Assembly: GCA_905221605.1 (NCBI GenBank)
Contig: CAJNDS010000111.1
Location: 161,589 to 225,588 of the forward strand
Direction: 5' to 3'
Source of the DNA: Symbiodinium natans
Lineage: Eukaryota; Sar; Dinophyceae; Suessiales; Symbiodiniaceae
Length of the DNA stretch: 64,000 nt
Shown here: one piece after another, positions 6,662-63,800 of the stretch
Layout: each line of letters opens with the position of its first letter
Numbering within the stretch: position 1 is the stretch's first letter
Position numbers and translations under genes: made by a program
The notes under the pieces: model-generated
Told to the model about the DNA's origin: nothing
Seen by the model: only the letters and a program-made list of their open reading frames with translations
Databases searched by the model: none

Positions 6662-6748
6662 GGGGTTTAGGGTTTAGGGTTTAGCGTTTAGGGTTTAGGG
6701 TTTAGGGTTTAGGGGTTAGGGGTTTAGGGTTTAGGGTTTCGGGTTGCG
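6662..6748 (+). repeat. Interstitial telomere-type array (TTTAGGG)n
   Basis: About twelve units with single-base variants (TTTAGCG, GGTTAGG). It lies about 190 bp from the 3' end of the LINE inserted at 6945-11602. Confidence 0.9.
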
Positions 6749-6931
6749 GCCCTCCTCCAACATCCCTTTTTGAGCACGGGCTGAGGGGCATGCCGGCAGC
6801 TCAGGGGACATGTGCTGACGCTATGCATCACAGATCCACTTCCGAGCACAAACTAGAAGAGTAACGACCTACACACTCGTTCAAGTCAGGTGTTGTCTGC
6901 ACATTGTTCAAATCGTTGGAGACGCTGCTGC

Positions 6932-6944
6932 CTCTAACATCCCT
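6932..6944. repeat. Left copy of 13-bp target-site duplication of the LINE
   Basis: CTCTAACATCCCT occurs here and again at 11603-11615, immediately outside the two ends of the LINE. The neighbouring bases differ (C against G on one side, T against A on the other), so the match is exactly 13 bp, a usual length for target-primed reverse transcription. Caution: a similar string (CCAACATCCCTTT) also occurs at about 6757-6769, so the motif is not unique. Confidence 0.7.
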
Positions 6945-6978
6945 TTGCAACTGGACTCCTTGCTGCCAGGATGCCGAA

Positions 6979-6995
6979 ACTCTTCTTAGAAGAGT
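6979..6995 (-). other. Hairpin in LINE 3' UTR
   Basis: ACTCTTC, loop TTA, GAAGAGT: a perfect 7-bp stem with a 3-nt loop, 34 bp from the 3' end of the element. In several LINE families a 3' stem-loop is what the reverse transcriptase recognises. That role here is inference. Confidence 0.5.
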
Positions 6996-7049
6996 CGATG
7001 AGTACAGGAAAAGCAAGCACACACACTGTAGCCAGTGCAGGCTTTCACA

Positions 7050-10000
7050 TCAATCTTGAAGGGTAGCAATTTTACGTATATATCGCTCAGGTATGACATT
7101 GAAGGTGAGAAGTATCTGACACTGTTCTTGCAAAACATCAGCGACTCGATGCAATGTTGGTAAGTGAGCCTCCAGCTGTGCCTCTGCCAAGGCACAATGC
7201 AGCAGGAAATACGGATGCAGCATACGCACTGTAATGGCAAAATGATACAGGCCCATCTGCAGGTCATCACACAAAGTCCAAGTCTGCAAGCCCTGTTCAT
7301 TATCAATCCAGACAAGTACAAAACCCTGCTCTCCCACACAGAGCGTACACGTGAAAAGCCAAACTGCATGCTGCAATACATAATCCTGCCATCGAGGAAA
7401 GAGGCCCGAATTGACGCGACTATGGAGCTGAGCCAGAGCCTGTTGTTCAAAGAAGCAGGCTCCACGCAACTTCCATGCCAGGCGGTCGGCAGGCAGCGCA
7501 AATATCTCCACCGGAGAGACGACTGCATTAAAAGCTTTGGCAGCACAACGCAGGAGCCAATCCAGCGGGGAGTTCGGGAAGCCACCTTGTGGCCGCCGCA
7601 TTCTGATCATTGAACTGACAGCTGCCCGCACCGGCGCTTCAGGTGGTCTTCGCAAGACATGGCCGAAGTAGTTCCAGAAACGCAGCTGCCACTGAAAAGT
7701 CCATGTTTGGGGTATCTTGTCATTGAGGAAGAGGTATACAGCACGTTTGCGAAGTCTATGCAAGACCATGGCCTGCGGTTTCTGGAGCAAGGTGGGTATG
7801 TGCAGCTGCAGCAGGGTTTGCAACGCAGTAGCTTGCAGGGTACGAATGCTATCAAGTGCATGCACGGTAGGAGGAACGACAGGTGAAGCCCAGAGCCATT
7901 TACTTCCGATGTAACGGTTTAGGATGGTCAAGGCCAAATTGGGCTGTAACCAATTGAGGCCACGAAGTACTGGGAGCATCTGCTGCAAACCGTGATGCAC
8001 ACTACGCACGAAAAAGGGTTGCCAAAGATGCCACAGATTCTCGCCAACACGTAGATGCCTCAATGGCTTGCGCAAGTACTGAGTAAGATCAACCCACGGC
8101 ACTTTGGACAACACATGGCCCGCAGGCAGAACCAGCTCACGACCCGCTGCAAGCGTAGCAGGAGAAGCCATGAGCTGTGTTTTGGTCAAGTTAAACGCAA
8201 GACCGACAGCTGACAAAGCATCCTGTATCCTTGGAAGGAGTTTGATGGCAGTATTCCAGTCATCAAAATGCAGCAAGAGGTCGTCAATGAAAAGCCACCC
8301 CCAATCCCCTACCACAGAGTCAAAACCATCAGCACGACATCGTTGGAACTCCTGTTGCAAAAGATGACCTATGATGAAGCTGAACACGCCAGAACTGTAG
8401 GTGTGACCCTGTTGCACACCCTGGGCCTGGCTGACTTCCCACTGCACCCCCTTCCATGCAAACACCAACTGTGGCTGCAGCACAACTCGCAGAAGTTGCA
8501 AAGCTTCGCGTGCCAGATGCGAGGGCGTCGACTCGGAGATCCACCGAGCTACTGCAACATGCTGCAATGAATCAAACGCAGACCTGATATCAGCATTAAA
8601 CCATATTCTGTGTTGGTGAAGAACGCCCTCATTGTAGACCATCCAGTGTGCAGTAGCAAGGGCATCAAGGACCTGGCTACCTGCAACACCCCCACACTGA
8701 CACGGAGGAGTTGACCACGATGCAACCAACCTCCGTAAGAGAATGTGGCAATACAATTTGTTGCATGCCTCAATTAGGTTTATAGGGCGGATGTCCGTTG
8801 GGGCAGCGACCTGGGCAACCTTTGGGATGAGAAGTACAAAAGCACGATAGAGGCCCTGCGGGTGTTGGGAAGCAGTGAAAAGGTTGTTGAGGAACTGTCT
8901 GAGAATAGTCCTTCCATCTTCAACGCCCCACATTGCCACTAACAATTCATAGGTAATACCAGTAAGACCTGAGGTTTTACCAGATTTGCCTTTGTTGAGT
9001 GCTTCCTGGATCTCCGCATCGGTAAACTCTGCAAGCATGTGCGCGCCGGACTCCAACTGCAAGGACTCGAGTATACCCTGAATCTCTTGGCGCTGTTCCT
9101 GTGGGACATCAGGGTGGAAAAGAGTGTCAAAGTGACGCTTGACCCTAGCAGCTGCTTCTCCGAGTCCTCCGGAGTCTTTGACAAGGGGTTGAAAGTCACC
9201 ATGAGGTTTGAGCCTTGCTCTCAAGTAGCTAATAGCGTGAGCATCGCCAGAAGCGGCATCATCCTCAAGGGACTGGAGCCACAGCAGTCGTTCCGCCCGA
9301 CGTTTTGCAAGGATAGCTCTCGTGAGTTCAAGCCGTTTGTCAAGATCAGTGCAGAAACGACGTTGGTGACAGAGATCCTTCAGGTAGGGGCTGTCTCTAT
9401 ACTTCTTGGATGGGGTGTTGTACGAAGAAGCTTGTTGAAGGGACTGCAGGCACTCCCACTGACCCTGGAGAGAAAGGGTTTCAAAGGAGGGCCGCACGAC
9501 AGCCAGGCATTCAGGCAAATTAGAACCAGCAAGCCACTTAGCACATCGTGCCCTGGCTTTCGGCTTGCGACGTTTGGTCCTTTTAGGAGCAGCCGCACCA
9601 AGGTGCAAAGCCAGCGTGACTCGATCATGATCAGACTGAATGTCATGCCGGGATCCACAATGCACCAAGAGCTGATTCTGACCAACAGGCGTAGACACAG
9701 TCTGGGACTTTAAAGCACGGCTGATGTAAGCGTAGTCTATGCTGGAACTTGAAGTAGAACCATGTCTGGTGGGTATATCTGAACGAAAGCACGAAAAGCC
9801 GAAGGGCGAAAGTGCGGCGTCGAGTAGGACAGCTCTGGGACTGCCAAACTCGGCATTGAAATCACCTATGATGAGAGCTTCGGTTTCAGAGTATGCCTGG
9901 CAGACACGTGTGAGCTCCGCAAGCGCATCTTCAAACATTGCATCGCTATTGTCGCCATGGGGTAAATGTACCGTAAAGATCCAACGCAAATTATGAGTAG

Positions 10001-10361
10001 CGGATGAAGCATATTTGACACCAATCATCCTCTCCCCTTTGTAGGTATCAGCAATGTACTCAACGCTGCCTTTGGAAAGAAGAATCACCTGTGCCAAATA
10101 CGAGTTCAAATCAGCAGTACCCAAAACATAGTAGGAAGAACACACGCAATCACTGAGTGAATACTCGGACAATGGCTCTGAATTCGATGCTTCCCTTAGG
10201 GCTGACGCAAGGGAGCCTGTACCACCAACTTCTTGCAAAGCCAGAAATTCGGGACCATTCTCATGCAAAAGAAGCCAATCCGAGATGATAGGCAAGGACC
10301 TACCCTGTACATTCCAGGAGTCACAGTAAAAGACATCAGTACTTGGCTCCCTTTCTGCAAG
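7050..10361 (-). CDS. LINE ORF2: endonuclease/reverse transcriptase
   Basis: This makes the DNA nick and cDNA for retrotransposition. Residues are counted from the TTG codon at 10295. The frame also runs upstream of it to the ORF1 stop and encodes SWNVQG, the usual start of an apurinic-type endonuclease. Endonuclease motifs: LALQEVGG (18-25), IIGDFNAEF (142-150), SSIDYAYIS (184-192), SDHD (221-224). A basic stretch, KRTKRRKPKARARC, is at 238-251. Reverse transcriptase motifs: LLIPK (488-492), ADIRSAFD (568-575, motif A), GVQQGHTYSSG (626-636, motif B), FIDD (669-672, in place of the common YADD). A long C-terminal region without RNase H follows. No frameshift or stop interrupts about 1100 codons. 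There is no ATG near its start, and the frame is the same as ORF1, separated from it only by the TGA at 10362-10364. Confidence 0.93.
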   Translation of the reverse strand, partial: LAEREPSTDVFYCDSWNVQGRSLPIISDWLLLHENGPEFLALQEVGGTGSLASALREASNSEPLSEYSLSDCVCSSYYVLGTADLNSYLAQVILLSKGSVEYIADTYKGERMIGVKYASSATHNLRWIFTVHLPHGDNSDAMFEDALAELTRVCQAYSETEALIIGDFNAEFGSPRAVLLDAALSPFGFSCFRSDIPTRHGSTSSSSIDYAYISRALKSQTVSTPVGQNQLLVHCGSRHDIQSDHDRVTLALHLGAAAPKRTKRRKPKARARCAKWLAGSNLPECLAVVRPSFETLSLQGQWECLQSLQQASSYNTPSKKYRDSPYLKDLCHQRRFCTDLDKRLELTRAILAKRRAERLLWLQSLEDDAASGDAHAISYLRARLKPHGDFQPLVKDSGGLGEAAARVKRHFDTLFHPDVPQEQRQEIQGILESLQLESGAHMLAEFTDAEIQEALNKGKSGKTSGLTGITYELLVAMWGVEDGRTILRQFLNNLFTASQHPQGLYRAFVLLIPKVAQVAAPTDIRPINLIEACNKLYCHILLRRLVASWSTPPCQCGGVAGSQVLDALATAHWMVYNEGVLHQHRIWFNADIRSAFDSLQHVAVARWISESTPSHLAREALQLLRVVLQPQLVFAWKGVQWEVSQAQGVQQGHTYSSGVFSFIIGHLLQQEFQRCRADGFDSVVGDWGWLFIDDLLLHFDDWNTAIKLLPRIQDALSAVGLAFNLTKTQLMASPATLAAGRELVLPAGHVLSKVPWVDLTQYLRKPLRHLRVGENLWHLWQPFFVRSVHHGLQQMLPVLRGLNWLQPNLALTILNRYIGSKWLWASPVVPPTVHALDSIRTLQATALQTLLQLHIPTLLQKPQAMVLHRLRKRAVYLFLNDKIPQTWTFQWQLRFWNYFGHVLRRPPEAPVRAAVSSMIRMRRPQGGFPNSPLDWLLRCAAKAFNAVVSPVEIFALPADRLAWKLRGACFFEQQALAQLHSRVNSGLFPRWQDYVLQHAVWLFTCTLCVGEQGFVLVWIDNEQGLQTWTLCDDLQMGLYHFAITVRMLHPYFLLHCALAEAQLEAHLPTLHRVADVLQEQCQILLTFNVIPERYIRKIATLQD

Positions 10362-10364
10362 TCA
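10362..10364 (-). other. Single in-frame TGA between ORF1 and ORF2
   Basis: Codon-by-codon reading gives TAT GAT CGC TGA CTT GCA GAA. The frame on both sides is the same and contains no other stop from 11525 to 7050. The endonuclease N-terminus is encoded about 15 codons downstream with no initiator ATG. This is either programmed read-through or a recent inactivating mutation. Confidence 0.85.
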
Positions 10365-11525
10365 GCGATCATAGGATTGCAAACTGGCTTCGATTTCGGC
10401 GTGAGTCTTGCCCGTTAAGGTCTGAAGCACATGAACGTTAAAGTGGAAAGTTGCGATGTCTCCATCATGCTCGAAAACTCTGGAGACAACCTTATCACCC
10501 GTCGTCGGAAACAAGGCGGATGCCGACCCTGATGCAACACGCTTGCCTGAGATCCAGACAACTTGCCTTCCCCAACCTATCTCCAACTCAGGCTTGTGAC
10601 CCTCAGCCCAAAGAGAGGAGAGAAAATCACACGCGCGTCTCGTGGCACGGTTCTTGCTTCTACGCTCAGCCGTTCTCGAAGGTGCCAGCCAGATATTGTC
10701 ACCACTGGCTGTCTGAGCACAATTCGAGCAACGATCCTGTAAGGAATAGAAACGTTCTGCTGCGAGTTCTGGCGTCAATGGTTTGAGGAAGAGATGACCT
10801 ACCTGTGCACGTTGGCCATATACCACTGTGCGTTCAACACAGTGTTGGAGTGGATCCCGAAAACGCTTCAAGAAAGAGTCCATATCACTCAAGATGAAAC
10901 GCCGCGGCGTGTCGAACTGCCATCCGCCTATAATCACATGGTTGAAATTCGTATCGGATGTAAGGTCCGCGAACTCGGATTGCTGGAGCCTTGGAGGAGT
11001 GGAGTGGAACGCAGGATGGCTCTTCTGGTTCTGCGCGGGTCCTGCCGAACCGGATGCTGTTGACCTGTTGTGTTGGTTGGCCAAGTACACAGACCACGCA
11101 TCTGAGCCATGCATCCCAGCCCCTTGGAACCGGTCAGGCGTGGAGTTGGGTGTGCTTGCTGCCTGATTCTTCTTCTGTTCATCAAACGCCTTCGTCAGCA
11201 TATCAACTTTGTCAACCAAAGCATCGACTCTAGGATCGCGCGCTGGCTGGGAAGTGATAGCTTCAACATGCGTCAGTCTGGCATTGTAATCATTCAAGCT
11301 CTGCTTCACTTCTGCAAAACCAGTCTGGACTGATAGCTGTAGTGACGAAACCCAAGCTGGAACAATCTCTGCATGCCTGGCCTGTTGACTCAGAAGTTCA
11401 TCTAGAAGAGCATCAGCATCAGGGGGATCCCTCTTGGTGCGTTTTGGGGGACTGGTAGATCGCTCATCAAACTCATCATGCTGAGTAGCAGCCAGTGGGA
11501 AACCATCCGACCCATGATCAGCCAT
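10362..11525 (-). CDS. LINE ORF1: coiled-coil nucleic-acid-binding-type protein
   Basis: 387 codons from an ATG 56 nt downstream of the spliced leader. ORF1 proteins of LINEs coat the element RNA. Visible features: a basic, nuclear-localisation-like PPKRTKRD near residue 27; a region with heptad-like spacing of hydrophobic residues at about 55-120 (LQLSVQTGFAEVKQSLNDY, VDKVDMLTKAFDEQKK), probably a coiled coil; a Ser/Pro/Gln-rich linker; and a C-terminal domain of about 200 residues with a Cys pair (CSNC) and an Arg-rich segment (RTAERRSKNRATRRAC). I recognise no named domain in the C-terminal part. The frame ends SLQSYDR then TGA, and the reading frame continues directly into the endonuclease of ORF2. 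Start choice: first ATG after the leader (context CCATGG on the complementary strand). Confidence 0.88.
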   Translation of the reverse strand: MADHGSDGFPLAATQHDEFDERSTSPPKRTKRDPPDADALLDELLSQQARHAEIVPAWVSSLQLSVQTGFAEVKQSLNDYNARLTHVEAITSQPARDPRVDALVDKVDMLTKAFDEQKKNQAASTPNSTPDRFQGAGMHGSDAWSVYLANQHNRSTASGSAGPAQNQKSHPAFHSTPPRLQQSEFADLTSDTNFNHVIIGGWQFDTPRRFILSDMDSFLKRFRDPLQHCVERTVVYGQRAQVGHLFLKPLTPELAAERFYSLQDRCSNCAQTASGDNIWLAPSRTAERRSKNRATRRACDFLSSLWAEGHKPELEIGWGRQVVWISGKRVASGSASALFPTTGDKVVSRVFEHDGDIATFHFNVHVLQTLTGKTHAEIEASLQSYDR

Positions 11526-11581
11526 GGGTTCTAGGAGTCAAGCGAACCAACTCGAACAAACGGGGAACTTAAGCCGAAACC

Positions 11582-11603
11582 CTTGAGCCAAAATGGCTAC
11601 GGC
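11582..11603 (-). other. Dinoflagellate spliced leader (DinoSL), retroposed copy
   Basis: The minus strand matches all 22 positions of the conserved dinoflagellate leader: it begins CCGTAGCCATTT, ends TGGCTCAAG, and has G at the variable first position. It is not an SL RNA gene, because no GT donor and intron follow the final G; the sequence continues GGTTTCGGCTTAAG into the LINE leader. It is therefore a leader captured by reverse transcription of a trans-spliced mRNA. It is placed exactly at the element boundary, next to the 13-bp direct repeat. Confidence 0.93.
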
Positions 11604-11615
11604 TCTAACATCCCT
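11603..11615. repeat. Right copy of 13-bp target-site duplication of the LINE
   Basis: CTCTAACATCCCT, identical to 6932-6944. Base 11603 may belong to the repeat or be the variable first base of the leader. Degenerate CCCTAAA sequence begins directly outside it. Confidence 0.7.
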
Positions 11616-27300: not shown

Positions 27301-28495
27301 CGCTATAAGCCCTGTTGTGGCACTTCATTTGCCATGAATTGGCCGAACCACCCTCGGAACCTCTCGTTCAATGAACATACATAGATGCGCACCCCCCCCC
27401 CTCCAATGATCCGCAAGGCGCGGACGCAGTGAGGGAAGGAGGTGGGGAGGAAGGGAGGGGGAGGAAGGAAGGGAAGGGGAGGAAGGGAGCGAAGGGGACA
27501 AACTCGACACTTCTCGCGAGAGAATCTTTTGGTCCAGGCACGTTATTTTGGTTGTTGGTGGTTGTCCCTAGCATTTTCGCCACCGACCAACACATCCAGC
27601 TTTGACTGGCTTTCCTGGACAAACAATGCCTGGGTTTTTAATTGGCTGGCTCCACTCAAGAAATTTCGAGACCAGAATGTTCTCTTCCTCTCAGGCTTGG
27701 GTTTGTCGGCTTTTTTTGTCTGGGTGCCTGCGTCCTATCGCCAAATGGTTTTTTGACCGAGAAAATCATGCCCCTGGAGCAACAGCTCCTAAGCTCAGGA
27801 ACGAGTAATATGAGACCCTCATACTTTATTTCCACAGGAATCGGAAAAGCAAATCCTGGAAAGTAGTGGAGATACAAGGGAGTGCGGATCATTGGGGCAA
27901 GGGGGGCAGAGGGTCTGTTTCCGGCATAAGGTTTAGTATCCTTGCTGGTTTAGGGTTTTGCTTACATACCGAATCTATTTCTCCAATGTTCTAAGCAGAC
28001 CCCGAACTCGGCCCGAAATGTGTTAAGCTATTTTCGGGTCCCGGTGATGCCACACAGGAGCAAGGGACTCTGCAATGGCACGAGTAACCGTTGTTGGCGT
28101 GCCTGGGCCAGCGGACTTCGTGACAATGTTGCCCTGGCAGTCAACGGAATCTGTTTCTGCCTCAGAGCACCGTCACTGCAACCGCACGCGGCGTCCCGGA
28201 TGCCAGCTACTCGCGTGACCGAGGCCCCTGCACATGGCAGACCTAACAGGTGCATGACGGCAGGCACATGCGATGCACTGCAAAGAGGGGTAGGTGGCCG
28301 CACACCGGGCTTGGACGACCAGAACTGATTCCCGGGTCCTGGCCACAGGGCACGCTCCGTGCAAACACGTCTGAACTCCTCCCCCCGCCTTCTGGGCCAC
28401 CACTCGTGGGCACCTCGACCGGGCCCTCAGTGCTCACCAACGCAATCATGTGTAGGGTTACTCTCACACTCGCACAAGGCCGGCAAGGCTTCGGT

Positions 28496-28640
28496 GTAGG
28501 GTTTAGGGTTTAGGGTTTAGGGTTTGGGGTTTAGGGCTTAGGGCTTAGAGTTTAGGGTCTAGGGTTTAGGGTTTAGGGTTTAGGGTCTAGGGTCTAGGGT
28601 TTAGGGTTTAGGGTTTAGGGTTTAGGGTTTAGGGTTTGCG
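28496..28640 (+). repeat. Interstitial telomere-type array (TTTAGGG)n
   Basis: About twenty units with TCTAGGG and CTTAGGG variants, the longest such array in the window. Confidence 0.9.
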
Positions 28641-60800: not shown

Positions 60801-63800
60801 GCAACAGTGTCACTCCGGGCGTTACACCCTCGCCGAGCACTTGTGGATTCAACAGTCTTGCGTTGCGTATTCAAAGGGGGATTTACATGAGCTACTTTCG
60901 GCTTGGCTGCCCCTACTACTAAGTACTTCATCCAAACATGAGATGCAATGAACGTGTTTCCTTTGTAAATGTTTCGATATTTGCCCTGCAATATCATGCG
61001 GGTTAGGGTAAAGTTTCGGGCGTGATCAAAAAGCAACCGGGTACCCACCAATGAGACCCCCTCAGCCCGAGGCCAGCATGAAGATCGACACGAAGTCGAG
61101 AAGCGGCTGCATGTGTGAGGGCCAGCTCCTGAGCACTCCGAGGCAAAGCGCATGCTAGCGGAACTTCGTGTTCCATGTGGGTGCTCGTGGGTGGAGGCCA
61201 GAGCACTGTAAGCTGCACCCTGAACCGTTCTGAACCCTAAACCTCTAAACCTCTAAACCTCGAAACCTCTAAACCTCGAACCTCTAAACCCTAAACCCTA
61301 AACCTCTAAAGCTCTAAACCCTAAACCCTAAACCTCTAAAGCTCTAAACCCTGAACCCTGAACCAAATTCACCGCCCCTTGCTTTCCGGGCCAAAGCGCA
61401 GCGAGACCAAGCCCACGAGGCCGATCGTCTGCAGCAAGGTCCTGAAAAGAGTTCACCCCTAAACCCTAAACCCTAAACCCTAAACCCTAAACCCTAAACC
61501 CTAAACCCTAAACCCTATAAAGCCCTAAACCCTAAACCCTTTTGCATCCAGGCCTCTTCGAACACTGCCGGGCCCCTAAAACCCTAAACCCTAAAACCCC
61601 AACCCTAAACCCGAAACCCTCACACTCTGAAGAAGTTGGTTTCGCAGGTAGACATCGATCCTCTTTGGGGTGGGTTTCTCTTTTTGAGGGGGGGGGGGGG
61701 CTTTCCAGCTGTTTTCGATGGCGTTTCGATTTGCTTCAAGTCCCGGGATGAAACGTGGAGAGGCAGACCGTCATCTTGCCGGGTGAGCGGCAGGGTCATG
61801 CCGAAGGCCATGGTCGTGCTCAGCATGGTGGACGCCTCGCGGGGCATTTTGAAGCTTCACTTTGGCTACAAGAGGAAAAGAGGCTTCCTGAATCCAGCCT
61901 TGGTGGTCACGGGCGAGTTCATGAAGTAGTAGAAAACCGGGATGGCACAGGCCATAGCCACGCCGCCCGCAAAGAAGAGAAGGTTGTCCTAAGACTCGCA
62001 GCTTGGGTATTTCGGAGATTCAAGGCTGGGGACGGAGCGGCATGCTTTTTGAAGGAATTACCTTGATTAGGACCTATGAAGACAACCCCCAAAATTCAAA
62101 CCCCAAACAACCCCCCCAAAGCCTGCAAGGCACTACCAACACCCTGTAATCTAGAGGCTTCCCGACGTTTCAAACCACGGCCGAGCAGCCATGCTGCTGC
62201 ACTCTCTGCATGCGCCATTGATAAACTTCGTGCCGACCTTCATGGGCTACACCCCAGCACGAGGCTTCGCAGGCAAGCCCATCCAGCCAGCTCAGCCAAA
62301 GGTACTTTAAAGCATTGAACTAAAATACTGGAGTTCGCAAAAACCAAATTGGCGTGCCAACTAAACGTTTGCGAAAGTGAAAGGAAGGAGAGAGAGCGAG
62401 ATTTGCTACAATGCGAACCGACACGACTTGAAATTGATTTAAACACCAACTGGCATTAATAACGAAGACTTGACCTGCAAAATGATGCACTCTACTCTCC
62501 AGAAATTCCCCCAAACCCAAAGCTACTAGTTACAGAGCCCAAAGCCCCATCAACATTGACATCAACGAAATCCTTTTTGGAACCCAGAAAAAGCCCCTCC
62601 CAGCCTGGCAACGGCCGCAAGGGACCCCGATCCGGCCCTCAGCGCACGTGCCCGGCAGGCCGCCTCCGATGTCTGAGCCGGTGGGGCCTAAACATGCCTA
62701 AACCCTAAACCCTAAACCCTAAACCCTAAACCCCCCCCAGGGAACTCGAACAAAGACACAGCAAAGGCCTGGGCAGTGAGAGAGGGAGCCGCACTTGTAC
62801 GCCTGCCGCACGGGGGTCTGGATTCCGGGGGCTGCGCTTGGCCGTCACGAAGTTCTATTTTGTCGTTGGGCTTCCGAGCCATTTCTGGGTCGAGTTCCTA
62901 TGACAAGGGGTATAGCCCGGACTCAGGAAATGGATGGAACTGGGTGTGGCATCCAGCACTTTGCTTGCTGACACGCACGCATGCACACCTGACTCAGCCG
63001 CAGCAGCCAGCAGCACCCCTGTGAACCACTTTGCTGCTTCAGACTGTTCTGCGAGATATGTGGGTTATCTGATATCGTATCTTGAATTACATCATTTTCT
63101 TCTCAATTTCTGGTGTCTTATTCGCTTCGCTCCTGCACCTTTAATATATATAAGACTATAGGTCCAAGGGAAAGACATGAATGGTGCTCCTTTCAGATCT
63201 ACTGATAAAAAAGGTACCAAAGGATGTGCCAGTAAGTATAATGTGAGTGACGGCCGCTATAACTGCAACCACTCACAAGCTTAACTCACTCACTCACTCA
63301 TTGCATTCGCGAAAAATTTCGGCGCACGCAACATTAATATTGTGGGGCACAAGAAAACGACTCATTTCGTGACCCAAATGCTGTGCGTCAACTTCGTCAT
63401 TACGTGCCTGCGTCGGCTCTTGCACGGTGGCGAAGTAGCCTTCTTCGAGGAAAGGGAAGTGCTGGTCCTGCATTCGAAGACGAAGGGGCCCTACAAACCC
63501 ACGAAGAGCACCTATGGTCGCCTGCAGGAACTCGAGCCTGATCCTCTCGCGTACCTTCCCCTGAGGCCGTGTTTCGAAACCGTACAACGGTCGGATCTCG
63601 TAGCGTCGTAGCTGATCCAGAAAATGGAGGGCCCACAACAAAAGCGCTGGAATACTCGTGTTTGCAGGCGATGGCAATGATGGGTCAGGACACCTGTCCT
63701 CTGGAATCACCTCCTGCCCAGCCAGGAAGCCTCACAGGCGATTCTAAGAGTGTTGGGTTTAGCCGTTAGCCTTTAGTCAGCAACCGCGGCATTTGTTGAA

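Follow-up and report, generated by a model that had tools for sequence, protein, structure and literature searches.

Does the spliced leader of the host (DinoSL), found at the 5' end of a LINE in Symbiodinium natans, belong to the life cycle of this element, or did it come to this place by chance or in a single event? The LINE lies on the minus strand of the window, the whole 64-kb stretch of DNA that was analysed (C111:161589-225588 in the 759-Mb assembly G000). The earlier note had placed the leader exactly at the 5' boundary of the element, against a 13-bp repeat and 56 nt before ORF1, and the match, the duplication and the spacing confirmed this arrangement. The DinoSL match is exact (11582-11603), and its 21 defined positions (11582-11602) directly adjoin a 13-bp target-site duplication on one side and, on the other, an intact LINE with two ORFs; the evidence comprises 21 of the 22 leader positions, since the first (D = G, 11603) coincides with the final base of the duplication. 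The duplication AGGGATGTTAGAG (target TTT|AGGG) is exact at its 5' (11603-11615) and 3' (6932-6944) sites, both read on the minus strand. This leader is the only match with up to three mismatches within the 64 kb (0 in 100 shuffles), and leader suffixes of 9 nt or more were not found elsewhere in the window. A third copy of the duplication, with one mismatch and on the same strand, is present at 6755-6767, beyond a segment of about 165 bp ending in AAAA; this segment, flanked by two near-identical duplication copies (window 6755-6944), is perhaps an earlier retro-insertion into the same TTT|AGGG site, preceding that of the LINE.

On the minus strand, the leader is followed by a 5' UTR of 56 nt (11526-11581), ORF1 of 387 aa (10362-11525), ORF2 with an open frame of 1103 aa (7050-10361) and a 3' UTR (6945-7049) that ends in GTTGC(A)n. 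ORF2 contains a reverse transcriptase (PF00078, E 4.6e-13) preceded by an AP-type endonuclease (PF03372, 25.6 bits with a cut-off of 24.5), and the endonuclease was recognised at E <= 0.01 in all six members of the alignment, the window copy among them. These domains, together with 5' truncation, a common 3' end and target-site duplications of variable length (13 bp in the window, 10 bp AGGGTATCCC in the copy L020 and others in shorter copies, the length being undecidable for insertions in pure repeat arrays), identify the element as an AP-endonuclease-type LINE. The copies end in a few A only, without the long poly(A) tail of the L1 type. The 3' UTR had no unusual fold (z -0.32), and an Rfam scan of the window gave no match at the gathering score, HDV-like ribozyme included, although a diverged ribozyme could escape such a scan.

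The predicted structure of ORF1 is of low confidence (pLDDT 52.8), with coiled-coil, RRM-like and C-terminal parts. Its top Foldseek match was human LINE-1 ORF1p (E 6.4e-4, TM 0.20/0.32), but this protein was absent from the 50 VIA-align rows listed, which mainly covered residues 191-286 and backed only the RRM-like part; ORF1 sequence searches against PDB and Pfam yielded nothing meaningful. The ORF2 frame opens directly after the ORF1 stop (window 10268-10361) and its listed start is TTG, so that its translation may depend on reinitiation or on a start codon other than ATG. A public S. natans protein (P0003) corresponds to 10 exact collinear minus-strand pieces, from window 9646 to 3974, that join parts of ORF2 and downstream sequence as one protein, and this chimeric protein is probably an annotation artefact. 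None of eight neighbouring ORFs had a Pfam match, and they were therefore not used as evidence on the direction of transcription. Relatives were not found in the viral_contigs, genome_contigs and phages collections.

The first 477 nt of the LINE, used as query against the assembly, gave at least seven matches (the counts from genome searches are lower bounds). Four of these are LINE copies that reach the 5' end, namely the window copy and those on C1822 (L019), C2256 (L020) and C1803 (L021). L016-L018 were dropped as LINE copies, as their match is confined to the leader plus the 10-20 nt that follow, and they correspond to other leader sites. The four 5'-complete copies begin at query positions 1, 5, 13 and 14, all within the leader, and the comparison of their upstream sequences (595 nt each) yielded 112 pairwise hits, all of telomere-like repeat and none of any other sequence. 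The non-leader upstream sequence shared by full-length copies, which the earlier note had named as evidence against the leader being a property of the family, is thus not seen; all four copies start in the leader, which is therefore a trait of the family and not of one copy alone. Over about 4.65 kb, the window copy is separated from L019 by 2 differing positions and from L020 by 6, and both ORFs are open in all three copies. The window LINE is young and probably autonomous. L021 is near-identical to the window copy in its first 1.4 kb, the remainder being about 96% identical with deletions and a stop in ORF2, a mosaic as after template switch or gene conversion.

The expectation that every full-length copy carries a leader held insofar as all four begin with leader-derived sequence, but the leader is whole in the window copy and partly inverted in the other three. 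The 5' end of L020 consists of the duplication AGGGTATCCC, inverted leader nt 4-12 and then direct nt 13-21; that of L021 consists of inverted nt 1-11 followed by nt 16-21 with one change; and L019 has inverted nt 1-6, then nt 16-21, an exact 15-nt relic (nt 7-21) and the UTR. The inverted pieces have lengths of 9 nt in L020, 11 nt in L021 and 8 nt (nt 1-8) in L019 if two G common with the flank are counted, and otherwise 6 nt. Inverted pieces of at least 6, 8, 9 and 11 nt were found in 14.7%, 0.95%, 0.025% and 0 of 4000 random 45-mers, respectively, and the inversion is therefore firm for two copies, L020 and L021, and weaker for the third, L019.

In L019 there is also a second leader unit. 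The 5' end of this copy can be written as the inverted leader piece, CTCAAG, CCATTTTGGCTCAAG and the family 5' UTR, the second unit being 15 nt long, intact and cut after the AG at nt 7. Dinoflagellate leader relics cut at the AG after nt 7 and located directly behind the leader are described in passages of PMC3229502, and the inner unit of L019, which fits this rule exactly, reads as a relic of re-trans-splicing. Furthermore, the 14 nt that follow the window leader (GGTTTCGGCTTAAG, 11568-11581, minus strand) match the 3' part of the leader at 10 of 14 positions and are present after the leader sequence in all four 5'-complete copies. For this specific position, such a match occurred at 301 of 200,000 random sites and at 3 of 2,487 sites after AAG, and matches of at least 10 of 14 were found directly after 10 of 41 leader occurrences at 40 other loci, as against 0.28% of random sites. 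Gapped tests for a decayed relic gave about 1%, whereas a search of the whole 56-nt UTR was not significant, with 897 shuffles and 524 random 56-mers (5000 of each) scoring as high. We consider GGTTTCGGCTTAAG to be probably, although not provenly, an older decayed leader. The statement that only one leader is present is thus likely wrong, and, of the alternatives put forward with it (replacement of old leaders at each cycle, or a copy that has gone through a single cycle), simple replacement does not hold, as relics remain, at least in L019. No support was obtained for a third decayed leader in the UTR, since the addition of a second or third unit gave no better score relative to controls. At another leader site (L044), the full leader is followed by CTACGGCTCAAG, apparently the same inverted-leader end as in L019 that was then spliced again, and inverted leader ends may accordingly be general.

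The last 500 nt of the LINE gave at least 36 matches in the assembly, of which 35 stop at query base 499 or 500 and the 5' limits range from 1 to 471, as in ordinary 5' truncation. Twenty shorter copies were read, one of them at the 5' junction only (n = 19 for the 3' junction), and in none of the 20 did the 60 nt ahead of the 5' junction contain a leader piece of 9 nt. The motif AGGG was found within -4 to +12 of the 3' end at 17 of 19 junctions (window background 8.9%), the exceptions being L074 and L081; with the stricter rule of a tail A run leading straight into GGG, the count was 14 of 19 (background 0.9%). A telomere word was present in the flanks of 17/19 shorter copies (background 12%), among which duplications like AGGGACCTCCC and AGGGTTCACCAGGC can be recognised. 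The TTT|AGGG site fits all four 5'-complete copies too. TTT|AGGG within telomere-like arrays is the insertion site of the LINE and implies a first nick at CCCT/AAA. Arrays of TTTAGGG/CCCTAAA, the type of target used by the LINE, are spread across the window (e.g. 178-260, 6663-6745, 28493-28637 and 61229-61540). TRAS and SART are insect LINEs that insert at a fixed place in telomere-type repeats; the S. natans LINE, in algal TTTAGGG arrays, resembles them in its insertion site, and TRAS/SART are not known to carry a spliced leader. For leader sites in general, a telomere word was found in the 60 nt upstream of 13 of 41, compared with 7.5% of random window positions, a hint that the machinery of the LINE may also move host messages.

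The assembly contains 205 exact leader sites. Twenty leader stretches were taken in list order among the matches listed (about 100), the window's own excluded, with 6 kb downstream of each. A reverse transcriptase (Pfam) was found downstream of the leader in at least four of the 20 (L024, L035, L041 and L026/L063), a lower bound obtained from the part of the ORFs that was scanned. L063, an extension of L026, encodes a reverse transcriptase, an endonuclease and a sub-threshold RNase H, and this leader-headed LINE has an ORF1 with an OTU protease domain and an ORF2 of 1334 aa. An internal deletion has left L038, a copy of L024, with no more than the end of the reverse transcriptase; the alignable DNA of the two begins at leader nt 1 in both, and their 400 nt upstream are dissimilar. 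In L024, L038, L026 and L041 the leader lies 40-104 nt ahead of the first ATG of a long frame. The leader-headed design is therefore not confined to the family of the window LINE. L035, with a leader, an exact relic and a reverse transcriptase 2-4 kb downstream, was excluded from the leader-headed elements and counted only as an element downstream, as telomere-like repeats lie between its leader and the ORFs.

The exact leader was also found in one contig of viral_contigs and two of genome_contigs. The former (L001, 1936-2913 of IMGVR_UViG_3300045993_001077) is an AT-rich, giant virus-like contig with two exact DinoSL copies, one of which directly precedes a GC-richer ORF of 254 aa. It looks like a dinoflagellate message captured with its leader by a large DNA virus, an assembly chimaera being another possible explanation. 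The other two (L002 and L003) are filed as Dehalococcoidia MAGs, and L003 looks like a contig with a dinoflagellate SL RNA gene, i.e. contamination.

How these observations should be explained depends on what the leader at the head of the LINE represents. The abundance of exact leader matches in the genome (205) might suggest that an SL RNA gene or a fortuitous match lies next to the LINE. However, the leader abuts the duplication exactly, it is directly followed on its 3' side by GG and not by the GT found in L003, which resembles an SL RNA gene, no match arose in the shuffles, and the other LINE copies agree at the 5' end; this reading is refuted, and we give it practically no credence. Comparison of the 5' ends also largely refutes a single event, in which a trans-spliced LINE message would have returned to the genome a single time, as a processed retrocopy, the master elements having a longer, promoter-bearing 5' end. 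Such an event would be in keeping with the leader-tagged processed copies of host genes that passages of PMC6050394 report as common in dinoflagellates, but no 5'-complete copy with shared upstream sequence was found in the assembly, all four begin in the leader, and three of them are near-identical with both ORFs open, i.e. they have been moving recently. We regard it as very unlikely.

Alternatively, the leader may have been captured once and now be plain element DNA, with a promoter at or in the leader and no new trans-splicing. The same 5' UTR does follow the leader directly in all four copies, as would be expected from such a capture. Nevertheless, of the two leader units in L019 the inner is cut behind an internal AG, which requires a second splicing event; the leader of the window copy is perfect and the putative older relic beside it is decayed; and the same design is found in other families. 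A single capture is thus improbable. The reading that we prefer, and that the earlier note had proposed, is that the RNA of the LINE is trans-spliced like a host mRNA and then reverse transcribed. It is supported at the DNA level by the four copies that start with the leader, and in this young LINE the RNA is very probably processed like a host message and trans-spliced in every cycle, the leader-capped RNA serving as the template.

Under this reading of renewed trans-splicing, a genomic copy would be transcribed by read-through from outside, which is most likely because nothing of the LINE's own lies upstream of the leader; the missing shared upstream sequence suggests that the LINE may need no promoter of its own. 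The host would then trans-splice a new DinoSL onto the LINE RNA at an AG located within the old leader or close to it, as indicated by the AG-cut relic in L019. By analogy with other LINEs, the leader-capped RNA would be translated and bound by the ORF1 and ORF2 proteins. ORF2 would nick a telomere-like repeat on its C-strand, at CCCT/AAA, a step suggested by the observed site preference, and the RNA would be copied from its GTTGC(A)n end, in agreement with the common 3' end of the copies. Copying up to the 5' end of the RNA would place the leader beside the duplication, as seen in the window, and the leader is often partly inverted, as if the second strand were primed inside it. An early stop of copying would give the leaderless truncated copies observed. 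The leader would be renewed in each cycle, old leaders staying as decaying relics. Whether host trans-splicing is obligate in the replication of dinoflagellate LINEs generally is a broader proposal, to which we give slightly less than an even chance: promoterless insertions would be read through in transcribed arrays, the AG of the old leader would act as a portable acceptor, the new capped leader would restore the 5' end and decaying leaders would count the cycles, with one family homing to TTTAGGG and often inverting its leader by second priming.

DinoSL-tagged retrogenes were reportedly described by Slamovits and Keeling in 2008 as 'mRNA recycling'. They are also the subject of passages in PMC3229502, PMC7245778 and PMC6050394, and, as these passages present them, they share with the window LINE an exact leader at the 5' end of the reinserted copy and AG-cut (nt 7) relics directly behind it that decay with age. 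In contrast, what is copied in the present case is the RNA of a mobile element itself, whose ORFs are intact, whose copies are nearly identical and which has a fixed 3' end and a preferred target, and the window ORFs are LINE ORFs and not those of a processed host gene. For flatworms, part of PMC12582326 suggests leader-bearing retrotransposon copies, with LTR/LINE loci that have partial leaders. This is a side remark on partial leaders, whereas the S. natans LINE has its leader precisely at the 5' terminus, and several copies and families were compared. About 30% of Hydra TE Iso-Seq reads bear a trans-spliced leader (PMC12220107), and the relevant passages concern leaders on TE RNA and say nothing of genomic copies beginning with the leader. 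The L1Tc/ingi elements of trypanosomatids, as covered in sections of PMC8190864, are also LINEs whose hosts transcribe polycistronically and trans-splice a leader, but they present the opposite solution, with their own Pr77 promoter, a ribozyme and unspliced transcripts. SymbioLINE-Dnmt elements (PMC5890265, main text) are likewise two-ORF Symbiodinium LINEs with active subfamilies. However, their ORF1 encodes a DNA methyltransferase, for which ORF1 of the window had no Pfam match, and that main text mentions trans-splicing once in passing and neither 'leader' nor 'DinoSL'. Leader-tagged retrogenes are thus already known, and leader-bearing TE copies in flatworms and TE transcripts in Hydra have been suspected or reported, as far as these passages go. 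We found no published description of a dinoflagellate LINE starting with the leader in the literature searched, which was mostly open-access.

A LINE copy that starts at the start of its RNA must be transcribed again, and the known answers to this problem are an internal promoter or a ribozyme. In S. natans, the host leader seems to solve it. According to PMC8045281, LINEs in these genomes are mostly old remnants, a picture qualified by the near-identical copies with open ORFs reported here, in line with the active subfamilies of PMC5890265. If the proposed cycle is true, past cycles would be readable from leader relics, and the same 5' end on element RNA and host mRNA would help to explain why mRNA recycling is frequent in dinoflagellates.
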